NCBI GenBank assembly: GCA_003245815.1
Contig: QKCD01000094.1
Location: 1 to 32,971, forward strand
Length of the DNA: 32,971 nucleotides
Reading direction: 5' to 3'
From: Sulfuricurvum sp.
GTDB taxonomy: Bacteria > Campylobacterota > Campylobacteria > Campylobacterales > Sulfurimonadaceae
The notes beneath the pieces were generated by a model. The model was not told the origin of the DNA. It ran no database searches and saw only the letters and a program-made list of their open reading frames with translations. The first letter of the stretch is position 1; each line of letters opens with the position of its first letter. Positions 1-6,137 of this stretch are shown piece after piece. A program made the translations under genes and the position numbers.

Positions 1-2
1 AT

Positions 3-125
3 AAAAATTACCCATGTATGTACGACGATCTATATAATAAGTTAAGTGATAAAGAGAAAAGGAATCTGAATTTGTTTTTGAACGCTTCGCTTCATGATAT
101 CGGAGCCGGAACATGTCACTATTAA
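3..125 (+). CDS. C-terminal fragment of a cassette-type ORF truncated by the window edge (…MYDDLYNKLSDKEKRNLNLFLNASLHDIGAGTCHY*)
   Basis: Open frame 3 from the window start to TAA at 123-125; the stop is the TAA of the TAAC that begins the first attC-like repeat. Confidence 0.5.
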   Translation, partial: KNYPCMYDDLYNKLSDKEKRNLNLFLNASLHDIGAGTCHY

Positions 126-191
126 CAAATCAGGGGAGTCCACTCAAAAACCCACTAGCGGCTTTTTGATTGCTCATTTTAAACGTTAGAC
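119..191 (+). repeat. attC-like site 1 (integron recombination site)
   Basis: TAACAAATCAGGGGAGTCCACTCAAAAACCC…GGCTTTTTGATTGCTCATTTTAAACGTTAGAC; ends with GTTAGAC, a perfect GTTRRRY match; same architecture as the repeats at 610-680 and 1091-1162. Confidence 0.75.
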
Positions 192-207
192 ACTAAAGGA
201 ATTAATA

Positions 208-615
208 TTGTTTAAGGGAAATGGCAAATACGATAATTTTGTCCCTACAAACATCTTTAAAAAAGACAGAGACAAAAATGACGTCTATTTTCAGTGGGGC
301 AAATTTGGAAATGGATATATTATAGATGACCAAGAAACAAAAGAAAAACTCATCGACCTTGAAGGTTATAAACACTTTTTTGTATCATATAAGCCTCCAG
401 TTCTTTTACCAATTATAATCGCTGCTCTTATTGTGGGAATAGGAATATCATTTTCAACTGATGACCAAGATGAAGTAAAAGGTTTGATGGCAACCATTAC
501 CGTAGTTCTTTACTTTATTACCATATCAATTTACTTTTTGAAAATCACCAGGACATTAAAAGGTTGTAAAAAAATCTCTAAAGATGAAAAGAAATGGATA
601 TTCGAAAATGTCTAA
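208..615 (+). CDS. Cassette-encoded hypothetical membrane protein (TTG start)
   Basis: ORF between two attC-like sites; two hydrophobic segments; upstream AAAGGA; stop TAA (613-615) overlaps the start of attC 2. Confidence 0.65.
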   Translation: MFKGNGKYDNFVPTNIFKKDRDKNDVYFQWGKFGNGYIIDDQETKEKLIDLEGYKHFFVSYKPPVLLPIIIAALIVGIGISFSTDDQDEVKGLMATITVVLYFITISIYFLKITRTLKGCKKISKDEKKWIFENV

Positions 616-680
616 CAAATCAAAGGAGACCAATCAATAAGTGCCCGCGGGTTTTTGATTGATCAATTTAAACGTTATAT
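610..680 (+). repeat. attC-like site 2
   Basis: GTCTAACAAATCAAAGGAGACCAATCAATAAG…GTTTTTGATTGATCAATTTAAACGTTATAT; R'' = GTCTAAC is the exact reverse complement of the R' GTTAGAC at the start of the same cassette (185-191). Confidence 0.8.
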
Positions 681-703
681 ATGTATGGAGTAAAGAAATA
701 GCG

Positions 704-1153
704 ATGAGTTTGATTATGAGCATAATATTTTTACTCATTCCTTTTGGAGTGTTAAGCGCAAACCGTTTATTCCTATCAAACAAGTTAGGCAAGACTTCGG
801 TTTCGGCAATATCTGCTGCGTTAGTTTATATCACTATTATAGGCATTATCGTATACACAAACCACAAGCTTGATGCTGAGTTAGCTGCATTCGATTTGAA
901 TGGAGATGGTTCCTTTTCTGGTGACGAAATTACTCCTGAACAAGAAATCGCAATGGATCGCGTCACCAACGATACGGGAAGAAATTTTGCTCCAATCACA
1001 GGTGCCATCTTCTCATTTATCTATTTTTTGTGTATCTGGTCAATATGGTCTATCTCATCCTGGATAAGGAGAATATATGCCAATAGAAACACTAAACAAA
1101 TCAGTGGAGACCAATCAAAAACCCGCTGGCGGCTTTTTGATTGCTCTTTTTAA
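704..1153 (+). CDS. Cassette-encoded hypothetical membrane protein with an EF-hand-like loop
   Basis: ORF in the second cassette; hydrophobic segments; DLNGDGSFSGDE fits a 12-residue EF-hand loop; the frame reads into attC 3. Confidence 0.55.
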   Translation: MSLIMSIIFLLIPFGVLSANRLFLSNKLGKTSVSAISAALVYITIIGIIVYTNHKLDAELAAFDLNGDGSFSGDEITPEQEIAMDRVTNDTGRNFAPITGAIFSFIYFLCIWSIWSISSWIRRIYANRNTKQISGDQSKTRWRLFDCSF

Positions 1154-1162
1154 ACGTTAAGG
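1091..1162 (+). repeat. attC-like site 3 (last recognisable)
   Basis: ACTAAACAAATCAGTGGAGACCAATCAAAAACCCGCTGGCGGCTTTTTGATTGCTCTTTTTAAACGTTAAG; internal CAATCAAAAA…TTTTTGATTG stem; same ends as sites 1 and 2. Confidence 0.72.
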
Positions 1163-1168
1163 CAGATA

Positions 1169-1723
1169 ATGAACAACACCATCATGATTTTCAGTATTCT
1201 TTTTTCACTAAGTGCCGAGGCTGAGATTTATCGAGAAGCAAAAGTTTGCAACGAGTCTGGAAAGATATGCTTTTACTGGTGGCCAAAGCTCAAAGCAGTA
1301 CCGGGATGGGAGCAGGACATTCCGCACAGTTACCACTATCGGATGAATACGCAGGCACCGGCCGGCTTCTCTTTCGCCAATGCCGAAGCGGTCATTTATG
1401 CTAGAGCGGTCTATAAGCCTGAGCAGCCGGATGCGAAAACCCTTGATGCGTTTATCGCAAACGACAAAGCCGATTTTCTCAGCCATGACCCGTCACTATC
1501 CATCACTCGGTCGGAAACTCTGAAAGACAAAAAGGGGAGAAGCTTTATCTCGTATCAATTCAAGCCGAGCGGTAAAGGCAATTGGGAGCAGATAGCTTAT
1601 TCTGAAGAAGTGGACGGTGACAACAACGAATACTATCTCGTATTTGTTCTGAGCTCCAGAACCGAATCCGGGTACAAGGCGTCACTTGATGCATTTAATC
1701 AATTTGTAACCAGCTATGAGTAA
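1169..1723 (+). CDS. Hypothetical, probably exported protein
   Basis: ORF directly after the last attC-like site; hydrophobic N-terminus. Confidence 0.6.
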   Translation: MNNTIMIFSILFSLSAEAEIYREAKVCNESGKICFYWWPKLKAVPGWEQDIPHSYHYRMNTQAPAGFSFANAEAVIYARAVYKPEQPDAKTLDAFIANDKADFLSHDPSLSITRSETLKDKKGRSFISYQFKPSGKGNWEQIAYSEEVDGDNNEYYLVFVLSSRTESGYKASLDAFNQFVTSYE

Positions 1724-1802
1724 AACGCTGACAGGGCAAAAGCGCCTATTGCGGTTATTCTGAGACATTTTAACGCCAGGAAGAAACAGGAGAAGAACCA
1801 TA

Positions 1803-2351
1803 ATGCGAACCTGGGATGACCTGCTATGGCTTTATAGCCAACCTGAATTTATAGCTTTACTCTTATTCAGCATGGCTCTGTATCCGTTGCTCAAATTTCT
1901 GCGACGCTTTTATCCGGAGTCGCTGCAAAAAGCAGCAAACGAATCCGAAAACTTCGCTAAAGAGTTGCAGAAAAACAGTGAGAATAGAAAAATATACCGC
2001 AAAGCAAATATGAAAATCGGATTCTTTATTTTCGGTCCGACTTTTATATTGTTATTTATTTACATTGCCTACAGTCTAATCATTGGATCGGAGCTGAAAG
2101 CGGCATGTGTGAAAGAGGTATTTGGGAAAATTTCCACGATCGCCATTATCACGCTTGGCATATATGCCATCAAAGCCGACCGGATCGACAGGCTCTTGCT
2201 CCAGGACGATTATGAAAAAGCGATGGAACTGACGAAGAAACAGATAGGCAGCGATCCATTCTACAGGTATTATGAAAAGTATTTGCCGTTTTTCGGTTAT
2301 TTTTTCATACTGCTTGGGATTGTCGGATTTGTAGCACAGGTTTTCTTCTGA
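1803..2351 (+). CDS. Hypothetical membrane protein
   Basis: 182-aa ORF with several hydrophobic segments; same strand as the cassettes. Confidence 0.6.
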   Translation: MRTWDDLLWLYSQPEFIALLLFSMALYPLLKFLRRFYPESLQKAANESENFAKELQKNSENRKIYRKANMKIGFFIFGPTFILLFIYIAYSLIIGSELKAACVKEVFGKISTIAIITLGIYAIKADRIDRLLLQDDYEKAMELTKKQIGSDPFYRYYEKYLPFFGYFFILLGIVGFVAQVFF

Positions 2352-2363
2352 AAAGTATAGGAA

Positions 2364-2960
2364 ATGAACATGAACACCACCATGCAATCTTACCTCGCCG
2401 AAACCCCCATCATCGACTTTACCGACCCCGCCGTCAGCGCATTGGCGGCGGAACTGGCGCAGGGGTGTGCGACCGATGTGGAGATCGCCCGCAACTGCTT
2501 TGAGTATGTCCGCGACGAGATCCGCCACAGCGGCGACCACAAAGACCCCGTCACGACCTGCAGGGCCAGCGACGTGCTGAAACAGGGCACGGGGTGGTGC
2601 TACGCCAAGAGCCACCTGCTTGCCGCCCTGCTCCGGGCCAACGGCATCCCGGCGGGCTTCTGCTACCAGCGGCTGAGCTGTTCGGAGTATGAGACGGAGC
2701 GATTCTGCCTCCACGGGCTCAACGCCGTCTATCTCAAAGAGTACGGCTGGTATCGGGTCGACGCCCGCGGCAACAAAGAGGGTGTCGATGCGCAGTTCGA
2801 CCCGCCCGTCGAGAGACTCGCCTTCGCGCTGCAACCGGGCGAAACGGAAGTGCCGGGGATACTGACCGAACCCCTTGACGTCGTCGTCGAAGCGCTGAAG
2901 AACCAGACGACCTACGAGGCCATGGTCGGGCACTTCCCCGATATCAAACCCGTTCTATAA
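2364..2960 (+). CDS. Transglutaminase-like (papain-fold) domain protein
   Basis: GTGWCYAKSHLLAALLRANGIPAGFCYQ … FCLHGLNAVYLKEYGWYRVDARGN resembles the transglutaminase-like Cys-His-Asp pattern. Confidence 0.85.
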   Translation: MNMNTTMQSYLAETPIIDFTDPAVSALAAELAQGCATDVEIARNCFEYVRDEIRHSGDHKDPVTTCRASDVLKQGTGWCYAKSHLLAALLRANGIPAGFCYQRLSCSEYETERFCLHGLNAVYLKEYGWYRVDARGNKEGVDAQFDPPVERLAFALQPGETEVPGILTEPLDVVVEALKNQTTYEAMVGHFPDIKPVL

Positions 2961-3092: not shown

Positions 3093-4637
3093 TTAGCGGA
3101 TAAGGTCGAAGAAGTAGTCTGTCGACGCGATACCCTTGGTCTCTTCGTCCAGCTGGTCGAGGACCTTGTTGGTGATCCAGGTCAGCAGGTTCAGCGCACC
3201 GTCGTAACCGCTGATGGAGTAGCGGTGCAGGTGGTGGCGGTCGAAGATCGGGAAGCCGATGTAGATCAGCGGCGTGCCCGTGTCGCGCATCAGCTCTTTA
3301 CCGTAAGAGTTACCGATCATGAAGTCGACCGGCTCGGTGAAGAGCAGTGAACGCATATGCCAGAGGTCTTTGCCTGCCCATACGTGGCAGCTTTCAGCAG
3401 CCGGAGACGTATCGAGCATCGCTCTCATCTCATCTTCCCAGCCTTTCGGCGCGTTGTGACAGAGGACGTGAGTCGGCTCAGCACCCATTTCGAGCAGGAA
3501 TGAAACGACACCTACGAGGAAGTCAGGGTCACCCCAGATTGCGAACTTCTTGCCGTGCATGTACGGGTAGGAGTCCTGCATTGCGTCAACCAGTCTGCCG
3601 CGCTCTACTTTCAGTTTAGCCGGAACCTCTTTGCCAGTCAGTTCTGCAAGTTTCATAACGAACTCGTCAGTACCTTTCAGACCGATCGGGTTGCTAAAGC
3701 CGCCCGCGTGTTTCCAGCGCTTCTGAACCATTTTCATGGTTTTGACAGTCGCGTACTTCTGCAGAGAGATCGTCGCGCTGGAGTTGATACAATCTTTCGC
3801 GTCAGCGATCGGCGTACCGCCGGCAAACATGCTGTACTCGCCAGCCGGCATGTCCCACTGGTCAGAGTGGTCGCCCAGCATCAGGTAGTTGCAGTCGAAA
3901 GACTCGACGATGCTCTTGACGGAACGGAGTGAACCGATGTACGTCTCGAAGCCCGGGATGATGTTGATGCGCTCTTTTTTCTCGCCTTTCTGACCTTCTG
4001 TCAGCTGGCTCATGATACCGTGCATCATGTTGTCGTAGCCTGTAATGTGGCTGCCGACGAATGACGGTGTGTGTGCGTACGTGATCGGGAACTCTTCGGG
4101 CAGGTGCTCGCCGCCGTCTTCCTCTTTCGCTGCAACTGCGAACGCGTAGAGGTCGTCACCGATAACTTCGGCCATACATGTCGTGGAAACCGCGATCATT
4201 TCAGGCTTGTAGAGGGCCGCACAGTTTTTGAGGCCGTCTTTCATGTTGACCAGGCCGCCGAATACCGCCGCGTCTTCTGTCATAGAGTCGGAAACACACG
4301 GTGTCGGCTCTTTGAAGTGACGTGTAAAGTAAGAACGGAAGTAAGCGACACAACCGTGGGAACCGTGAACGTACGGCATCGTGTTTTCGAAACCGAGGGC
4401 AACCATAACGGCGCCGAGGGGCTGACACGCTTTTGCCGGGTTAACGGTGATCGCTTCGCGGGCAAGGTTTTTCTCGCGGTATTCCCACGTTTTTGTCCAC
4501 TCTGCGACTTCTTTGACTTTCTCAGGGTTGATCGCACCCATGCCGCCTTCGAACTGCTTCTTGTTTCTCAGTACTTCTTGGTATTCCGGTCTCTGGAAGA
4601 GATCTTTACCGTTGACAATTTTTTCTACTTCTTGCAT
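3093..4637 (-). CDS. nifK: Nitrogenase molybdenum-iron protein beta chain
   Basis: NPAKACQPLGAVMVALGFENTMPYVHGSHGCVAYFRSYFTRHFKEP; linked to nifD and nifH. Confidence 0.98.
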   Translation of the reverse strand: MQEVEKIVNGKDLFQRPEYQEVLRNKKQFEGGMGAINPEKVKEVAEWTKTWEYREKNLAREAITVNPAKACQPLGAVMVALGFENTMPYVHGSHGCVAYFRSYFTRHFKEPTPCVSDSMTEDAAVFGGLVNMKDGLKNCAALYKPEMIAVSTTCMAEVIGDDLYAFAVAAKEEDGGEHLPEEFPITYAHTPSFVGSHITGYDNMMHGIMSQLTEGQKGEKKERINIIPGFETYIGSLRSVKSIVESFDCNYLMLGDHSDQWDMPAGEYSMFAGGTPIADAKDCINSSATISLQKYATVKTMKMVQKRWKHAGGFSNPIGLKGTDEFVMKLAELTGKEVPAKLKVERGRLVDAMQDSYPYMHGKKFAIWGDPDFLVGVVSFLLEMGAEPTHVLCHNAPKGWEDEMRAMLDTSPAAESCHVWAGKDLWHMRSLLFTEPVDFMIGNSYGKELMRDTGTPLIYIGFPIFDRHHLHRYSISGYDGALNLLTWITNKVLDQLDEETKGIASTDYFFDLIR

Positions 4638-4670: not shown

Positions 4671-6137
4671 TTACGCCTCGCTCTCCCACGGCGCTTTAGA
4701 GTGGCCCCAGACCGGAGAGTTGATCGCAAGATCCATGTCTTTGGCAAAAATCGCGAAACCGTCATACCCGTGGTACGGACCGCTGTAGTCCCAAGAGTGC
4801 ATCTGGCGGTACGGCAGACCCATTTTCTGGAACACGTATTTCTCTTTGATACCTGAAGCAACGAGGTCCGGCTGAAGTTTCTTGACGAATGCTTCAAGCT
4901 CGTATTCGTTGACGTCGTCGTAGATCACCGTGGAACGGAAGATCTCGTCTTTGGTACGTTTGTAGTCGTCGTCGTGTGCGAATTCGTAACCCGTACCGAT
5001 AACTTCCATACCGAGGTCTTCGTAGGCACCGATAACGTGGCGCGGGCGGAGACCACCGACGAACAGCATGACCTGCTTGCCTTCGAGGCGCGGGCGGTAT
5101 TTGTTGACGACTGCGTCGATCATCGGCTGGTACTTCGCGATGACCTCTTCACATTTCGCCTGGATGCTCTCGTCGAAGAACGCGGCGATTTTGCGCAGAG
5201 ACTTGATCGTCTGTGTCGGGCCGAAGAAGTTGTACTCTACCCAGGGAATCCCGAACTCTTTCTCCATGTGGCGGGAGATGTAGTTCATGGAACGGTAGCA
5301 GTGCAGCAGGTTCAGCTTCACTTTCGGTGTGGCTGCCATCTCTTTCAGAGTCGCGTCACCGGACCACTGAGCAACAACACGCAGACCCATCTCTTCGAGA
5401 AGGATACGGCTTGACCATGCGTCACCGCCGATGTTGTAGTCGCCGATGATGGCAACGTCGTATTCTGTCGGCTCGATCGCTTCACCCAGGGTGTCGACTT
5501 TACCGTCGAAGACGTAGTCACGAACCGTGTCGTTCGCGATGTGGTGACCCAGGGACTGAGAAACACCGCGGAAACCTTCACAGTTGACCGGAACAATTGT
5601 TTTACCCGTTTTCTTCGCGTAGACTTTGGAAGTCGCGTTGATGTCGTCACCGATCAGACCGATCGGACATTCAGACTGGACGGTAATCCCGTTGTTCAGC
5701 GGGAAGAGTTCGTCGATCTCTTCGAAACAGACCGCCAGTTTCTTGTCACCGCCGAAGACGATGTCTTTTTCCTGGAAGTCGGAAGAGAAGTTCATCGTTA
5801 CGAAGGTGTCGACACCTGTCGTACCGATGTAGTAGTTACGGCGACCTGCACGGGAGTACTGGCCACAACCGATAGGACCGTGGGAGATATGGACCATATC
5901 TTTGACCGGACCCCATACAACGCCTTTTGAACCCGCGTAGGCACAGCCGCGCTGGCTCATGACACCGGGAACAGTTTTCTTATTCGAACGAACGTTACCG
6001 CAAGTTTTTTGCGTTTCGTCTTCAGGACCGCCGACACCGAGGTGCTTGGCACGGTTTTTGGCGGCTTTCGCCGGGTAGGCCTTGAGGACCTCCTCGATCG
6101 CCGCTTTCTGTTTTGCTTCCAATGATTCCGGACCCAT
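4671..6137 (-). CDS. nifD: Nitrogenase molybdenum-iron protein alpha chain
   Basis: [47 protein letters not shown], typical of Mo nitrogenase NifD. Confidence 0.98.

Follow-up and report, generated by a model that had tools for sequence, protein, structure and literature searches.

What kind of element stands at the very end of a contig, beside the nitrogen-fixation island of a GC-rich bacterium, and why is no integrase seen with it? The window, by which we mean the whole stretch of DNA analysed here, is the entire contig C65 (positions 1-32971, 32,971 bp). The source MAG (2.15 Mb in 133 contigs, 81% complete, 6% contamination) represents an uncultured, GC-rich, sulfur-oxidiser-type bacterium of a Sulfurimonas-like family. 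Handles beginning with G, C and L denote genomes, contigs of this MAG and loci, respectively. Judged from its sequence, this contig almost certainly carries at its left end the right-hand end of an integron cassette array; two of the cassettes are complete, a third is represented by its tail, and the array is cut off at base 1. The features of this region are as follows.

1-119, forward strand: 3' part of a truncated cassette; ORF 3-125, 40 codons visible, open from the contig start, with its TAA (123-125) within the attC site.
120-191, forward strand: attC site 1; R'' TATTAAC (120-126), hairpin, R' GTTAGAC (185-191), crossover G185/T186; 88.2 bits with covariance model R1.
186-674, forward strand: complete gene cassette 1, 489 bp; ORF 208-615 with TTG start, 135 aa.
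610-680, forward strand: attC site 2; R'' GTCTAAC (610-616), R' GTTATAT (674-680); 80.8 bits with R1.
675-1156, forward strand: complete gene cassette 2, 482 bp; ORF from ATG at 704 to the stop at 1151-1153, 149 aa, entering attC site 3.
1091-1162, forward strand: attC site 3, the last recognisable attC; R'' ACTAAAC (1091-1097), R' GTTAAGG (1156-1162); 93.3 bits with R1.
1157-2360, forward strand: AT-rich tail, 43.6% GC; ORFs 1169-1723 and 1803-2351, with no attC behind them.
2364-2960, forward strand: transglutaminase-like gene (PF01841) of host-like GC.
3093-4637, reverse strand: nifK (PF00148, 4.8e-132; nifK TIGR01286, E 9.7e-242), the first host gene of the nif island.

The initial annotation had described three attC-like repeats, and three were found where it placed them, all in the same orientation, with R''-to-R' spans of 120-191, 610-680 and 1091-1162. 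Their spacing was also given correctly (the starts are 490 and 481 bp apart, and the two complete intervals measure 489 and 482 bp), and it was right to place the stop codons 123-125 and 613-615 within the TAAC of attC sites. One ORF had been assigned to each interval. The ORFs are present, but that of cassette 2 runs through attC site 3, and the left ORF (3-125) is truncated by the contig start. The outer core of attC sites has the consensus RYYYAAC for R'' and GTTRRRY for R'. In the window the outer cores are TATTAAC/GTTAGAC, GTCTAAC/GTTATAT and ACTAAAC/GTTAAGG; AAC and GTT are invariant in all three, and some of the variable bases are off consensus.

A covariance search, proposed as a check, matched all three sites with scores of 80.8-93.3 bits and, for a genome of 2.15 Mb, E-values between 3e-15 and 3e-18, well beyond what chance would give. 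The model used, R1, was built from seven sites of this genome including the three of the window; because it was trained on its own sites, the independent weight lies with intI-adjacent copies in other genomes and with pairing at the level of the cassette. No Rfam family matches the repeats at the gathering score. An independent grammar scan of the 33 kb (degenerate R''/R' plus hairpin) returned site 3 as its sole strong match and was too strict to test sites 1 and 2. With filters off, no further attC was detected past 1162 up to position 5000, and a weak look-alike seen by eye at about 1727-1785 was not supported.

Folding of the bottom strand, another suggested check, gave a mixed outcome. 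Sites 1 and 3 clearly favour the bottom strand (-10.1 versus -4.9 kcal/mol for the top strand, z -3.4; and -17.3 versus -11.2 kcal/mol, z -5.1), but the bias at site 2 (607-683), the least stable of the three, is negligible (top -4.5, bottom -4.8). Across 87 sites the hairpin is established as conserved: it has 20 pairs, 93.6% of cells are paired as against 31-46% when the alignment is slid, and compensatory changes on both sides occur in 14 of the 20 pairs (0 of 500 shuffles). At 76 of the 87 the bottom strand folds more stably than the top.

In an integron, the four variable bases of R' are expected to complement the R'' of the same cassette and not that of the same site. Within 59 cassettes the mean complementarity was 3.10 of 4, with 30 perfect, and within sites it was 1.80, with 3 of 95 perfect; none of 20,000 permutations reached the cassette mean. 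As had been claimed, the cassette at 186-674 begins TTAGAC, and the R'' at its end, GTCTAAC, is complementary to GTTAGAC (185-191) at all 7 positions. The ends of the cassette at 675-1156 are mismatched (R' GTTATAT and R'' ACTAAAC, 1 of 4 variable bases), and taken alone this cassette does not show the pairing. The cassette is established as a moving unit. The integron of G226 and a different chromosomal locus in G227 share a 1,079-bp stretch at 98.5% identity, which consists of one cassette and the attC sequence that bounds it. The identity ends at the sites and does not extend into either flank; orthologous flanks of these genomes mostly share about 84-93% identity. This stretch appears to be a direct sign of cassette movement.

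The product of cassette 1 has two likely membrane helices as seen by eye. Its ORF has no Pfam, NCBIfam or PADLOC match, and in the 229 family genomes its only relative outside its own genome is a weak 34% partial match in G223. The cassette 2 product (704-1153) has membrane segments with an EF-hand-like motif, DLNGDGSFSGDE, between them, and no family match. With the ends of cassette 2 unpaired and the fold of site 2 weak, the window array may be of some age and no longer fully active.

Searching the 229 family genomes with R1 revealed tandem attC of the window type beside full-length IntI. G226, a complete genome, has intI at 973383-974324 on the forward strand and five attC on the opposite strand, from 972022 down to 969047; the first cassette has R' GTTAGAA at attI, an exact match to its R'' TTCTAAC. 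With TIGR02249, whose cut-off is 265, this IntI reaches 420.9 bits, and its match to IntI4 of V. cholerae (2A3V) is at 6e-80. The same arrangement of IntI and attC occurs in G035, with 14 aligned sites. IntI matches are present in 83 of the 229 family genomes and exceed the cut-off in 71, and the site type was found in 54 of 398 sampled genomes of the class, across 23 genera. The reading of the repeats as attC sites that define an integron cassette array is thus strongly supported, by IntI-adjacent copies in relatives and by R'/R'' pairing at the level of the cassette. The site type is established, as is the presence of IntI and attI beside it in relatives, and the sites at 120-191, 610-680 and 1091-1162 are attC bounding two complete cassettes. 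In such a system the bottom strand of each attC would fold into a hairpin, IntI would cut and join this hairpin at G/TTA, and the cassette would leave as a circle or be inserted into attI, another attC or a secondary site. We infer both the action of IntI on these particular window sites and the route by which the array reached nif.

The surroundings of the array differ sharply in composition. GC content rises from 34.8% in the array to 43.6% in the tail up to 2360 and 62.3% in the transglutaminase-like gene, the rest of the contig being at 59.9%; the 25-point contrast between the array and the rest of the contig indicates a foreign composition. No family match above the cut-off was obtained for the tail ORFs 1169-1723 and 1803-2351. 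The AT-rich tail (1157-2360) is either a remnant of old cassettes that have lost their site or a foreign flank. The position next to the nif island, as first described, holds for the window, but it is lineage-specific, since ORFs of the window array are absent downstream of nifK in 20 relatives. Gene order is accordingly not fixed among relatives, the array missing beside nifK in those 20; like the covariance matches, this speaks for the initial annotation, which had named a fixed order and a lack of attC matches as refuting it. Recurrent insertion downstream of nifK was considered and rejected, as no window ORF was found there in the same 20 relatives.

Homologues of the transglutaminase-like gene occur in 49 of 229 genomes, usually not near attC of the window type. 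In G149 (L175:4953-5639) such a homologue is the first cassette adjoining intI, and at L169 (G113) one is preceded, at a distance of about 25 bp, by an attI core, with intI not detected on that contig. Two further loci bring nif and integron parts together. In G010, of another genus, an attI-like core (L211:5062-5073) lies about 3.4 kb downstream of nifK, with no adjacent window-type attC reported. At L059 (DCUJ01000012.1, Sulfurospirillum sp. UBA2217) about 8 kb separates nifK from an intI and a single attC, which makes this the second instance of nif genes near an integron.

A pattern search found seven attC of the window type in this genome, on the four contigs C65, C34, C68 and C22. The outermost sites on these contigs are at most 700 bp from a contig end (the last of the window is at 1162). 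Contigs C65, C34 and C22 each show a right-hand array end followed by host genes, and C68 shows a left-hand array start, so that there are at least three array places. Upstream of the C68 start are chromosomal genes (pgpA-like and ATP sulfurylase-like, by eye), with no intI and no attI core. On C34 (L019), two decayed attC at 3481-3558 and 4213-4290, whose R' boxes are lost, lie up to 3.6 kb past the last good site, which indicates that arrays in this genome were formerly longer.

No IntI was detected above the TIGR02249 cut-off of 265 in this 81%-complete genome, where the best match reached 58.6 bits, and the window itself begins inside the array. The TIGR02249-like matches on C93 and C51 were rejected as IntI; the two proteins, 275 and 285 aa long and scoring 58.6 and 49.3 bits, are recombinases of the Xer-like kind. 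On the contig ends of this genome no attI core was found, and of four matches with 2 mismatches none is at an array; the array start of the window lies off the contig. The sedentary chromosomal integron of Campylobacterota (TIGR02249 IntI; the phylum is listed in PMC8618304) shares with the window the attC type, the G/TTA crossover and the cassette anatomy. It differs in that the window genome is without detected IntI or attI and has only 2-3 cassettes visible per contig end.

Three attC within 1.05 kb and no intI on a 33-kb contig agree with the definition of a CALIN (at least two clustered attC without intI), though this may be an assembly effect. CALINs, as Cury et al. are cited in PMC8618304 and PMC9024848, likewise have several attC in the same orientation within a few kb and no intI on the contig; as far as those citations describe them, the window differs in that its array is truncated by the contig, so that the absence of intI may result from the assembly. 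Formally, then, the array in this genome is a CALIN, whether a piece of an integron broken by the assembly or an array without an integrase. In Sulfurimonas autotrophica, one In0 and one CALIN have been recorded (PMC10295459).

The relatives show how arrays without an integrase may begin. Upstream of intI in Campylobacterota loci lies an attI core with a consensus of approximately TATAATGTTC-TTGAATAAATA/GTTA, and the same core heads many intI-less arrays. The attI matrix was trained on intI-adjacent sites that had been picked with the core pattern, and it therefore favours that form of the core. Over 335 kb of array loci the matrix gave scores of at least 14 at 22 places; almost every one lies upstream of a first attC, and they often carry the R' which that attC requires. 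Among held-out intI-less arrays, 12 of 20 have an attI core 200-950 bp upstream in the correct orientation, and the antisense score never exceeded 10.6; these arrays, drawn from loci with the strongest attC matches, guard for the presence of this attI core and not for other forms of attI. Several of the attI-headed held-out arrays are in genomes without any IntI match. The scattered sites have the core form TGAATAAATA/GTTA, often with a TATAAT-like box immediately before it. Arrays without intI that start at the core AATAAATA/GTTA with a -10-like box were noted at L140, L141, L142, L144, L146, L147, L148, L150, L152, L186 and L190-L192. The held-out loci listed with such a start are L221, L223, L225, L226, L228, L229, L231, L233 and L235-L238.

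Sequences in front of these cores are also repeated. Leader A, of about 235 bp, recurs in G225, G226 and G227, and the unrelated leader B, of about 200 bp, is found at four array starts in G226 and G227; G035 has one further repeated leader pair. The similarity ends exactly at GTTA. The copies of leader B are as follows.

L136:7443-7643, L137:4757-4963, L148:9437-9642 and L152:2570-2773: leader B, 79-91% identical to the L148 copy, each ending exactly at the attI crossover.

Of the array loci without intI that were checked, only four (L144, L150, L188 and L225) have IntI remnants alongside. Stages of intI loss can be seen when L133:9108-9411 is compared with L142:7231-7463 and L144:5166-5540. 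The gene is intact in G226, cleanly deleted at the orthologous place in G225 and, at another G225 locus, reduced to its 5' start and its last 31 codons. Arrays headed by attI with few IntI remnants suggest either that whole integrons multiplied and repeatedly lost intI, or that attI modules were scattered and served in trans.

Why, then, is no integrase seen with the array of the window? An even chance is given to a true orphan CALIN: AT-rich cassettes of a relative would have been inserted by a transient or since lost IntI at non-attI sites, in at least three places of a GC-rich host, and would now be relics. The several loci (at least three array ends on C65, C34 and C22 and one start on C68), the 25-point GC contrast, the decayed sites of C34 and the unmatched ends of cassette 2 are consistent with such a history, as is the lack of intI and of an attI core in what is assembled. 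The start on C68, the sole visible one, has no attI core and has chromosomal genes upstream, and it leans the same way. However, this is a draft genome that lacks 19% of its sequence, and each of the arrays extends past the end of its contig; intI and attI may simply be unassembled. The initial annotation had expected the integrase to the left of the window, that is, a complete chromosomal integron whose intI/attI end falls in the missing part of the assembly, and to this we give slightly less than an even chance. The contig does break inside the array, repetitive arrays are known to break assemblies and draft assemblies to overstate CALINs (PMC9024848), and IntI exceeds the cut-off in the 71 of 229 family genomes counted above. 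Against it, no contig of the MAG holds an IntI above the cut-off, not even as a fragment, and no intI lies upstream of the start on C68.

A further reading, which we put forward tentatively and consider somewhat doubtful, is that the integron of Sulfurimonadaceae-like bacteria is a set of scattered attI, each heading its own short array at a separate place on the chromosome, with one IntI acting in trans or lost; the window array would be a member of this set whose head lies off the contig. It is very improbable, by comparison, that the repeats are some other dispersed palindromic intergenic repeat, of the REP or terminator-like kind, with unrelated ORFs between them. A strong hairpin and dispersal over the chromosome would fit such a repeat. 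We rejected it because R' and R'' pair across the ORF, spanning the cassette, and not within the repeat; in addition, divergent IntI and attI adjoin arrays, the G/TTA ends are conserved with the sequences diverging exactly there, and no Rfam family was matched at the gathering score.

Whichever history applies, the array in the window is an ordinary element of a known type and of low novelty; it is well verified, and its host and place are unusual. Off-target insertion, loss of intI and rearrangement have all been named as possible origins of CALINs (PMC8618304). Insertion of cassettes into genomes at attG sites (Loot et al. 2024, via PMC12901181), as far as it is presented there, would account for arrays that lack attI, the start on C68 among them. 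The dispersed CALINs of Xanthomonas resemble the arrays of the relatives in being intI-less at several fixed chromosomal places (PMC12444791) and were interpreted, in the portion of that report drawn on here, as traces of ancestral integron activity. In contrast, many of the Sulfurimonadaceae-like arrays start at an attI core, and the same portion mentions no such attI for Xanthomonas (PMC12444791). The attI of integrons outside class 1 are poorly described and go undetected by the standard program (PMC9024848), so that a pattern of attI-headed arrays could have been overlooked; in a limited search of the literature we found no report of attI heading CALINs. Novelty would lie in the scattered attI sites of the relatives, a set to which the window array may belong.

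With the window array, integron cassettes are clearly documented next to the nitrogen-fixation island of a Sulfurimonas-like bacterium that is uncultured and GC-rich. The relatives matter more than the array itself: their complete genomes bear on the origin of CALINs and, as these contain intI-less arrays that start at an attI core, make the question of that origin directly testable.
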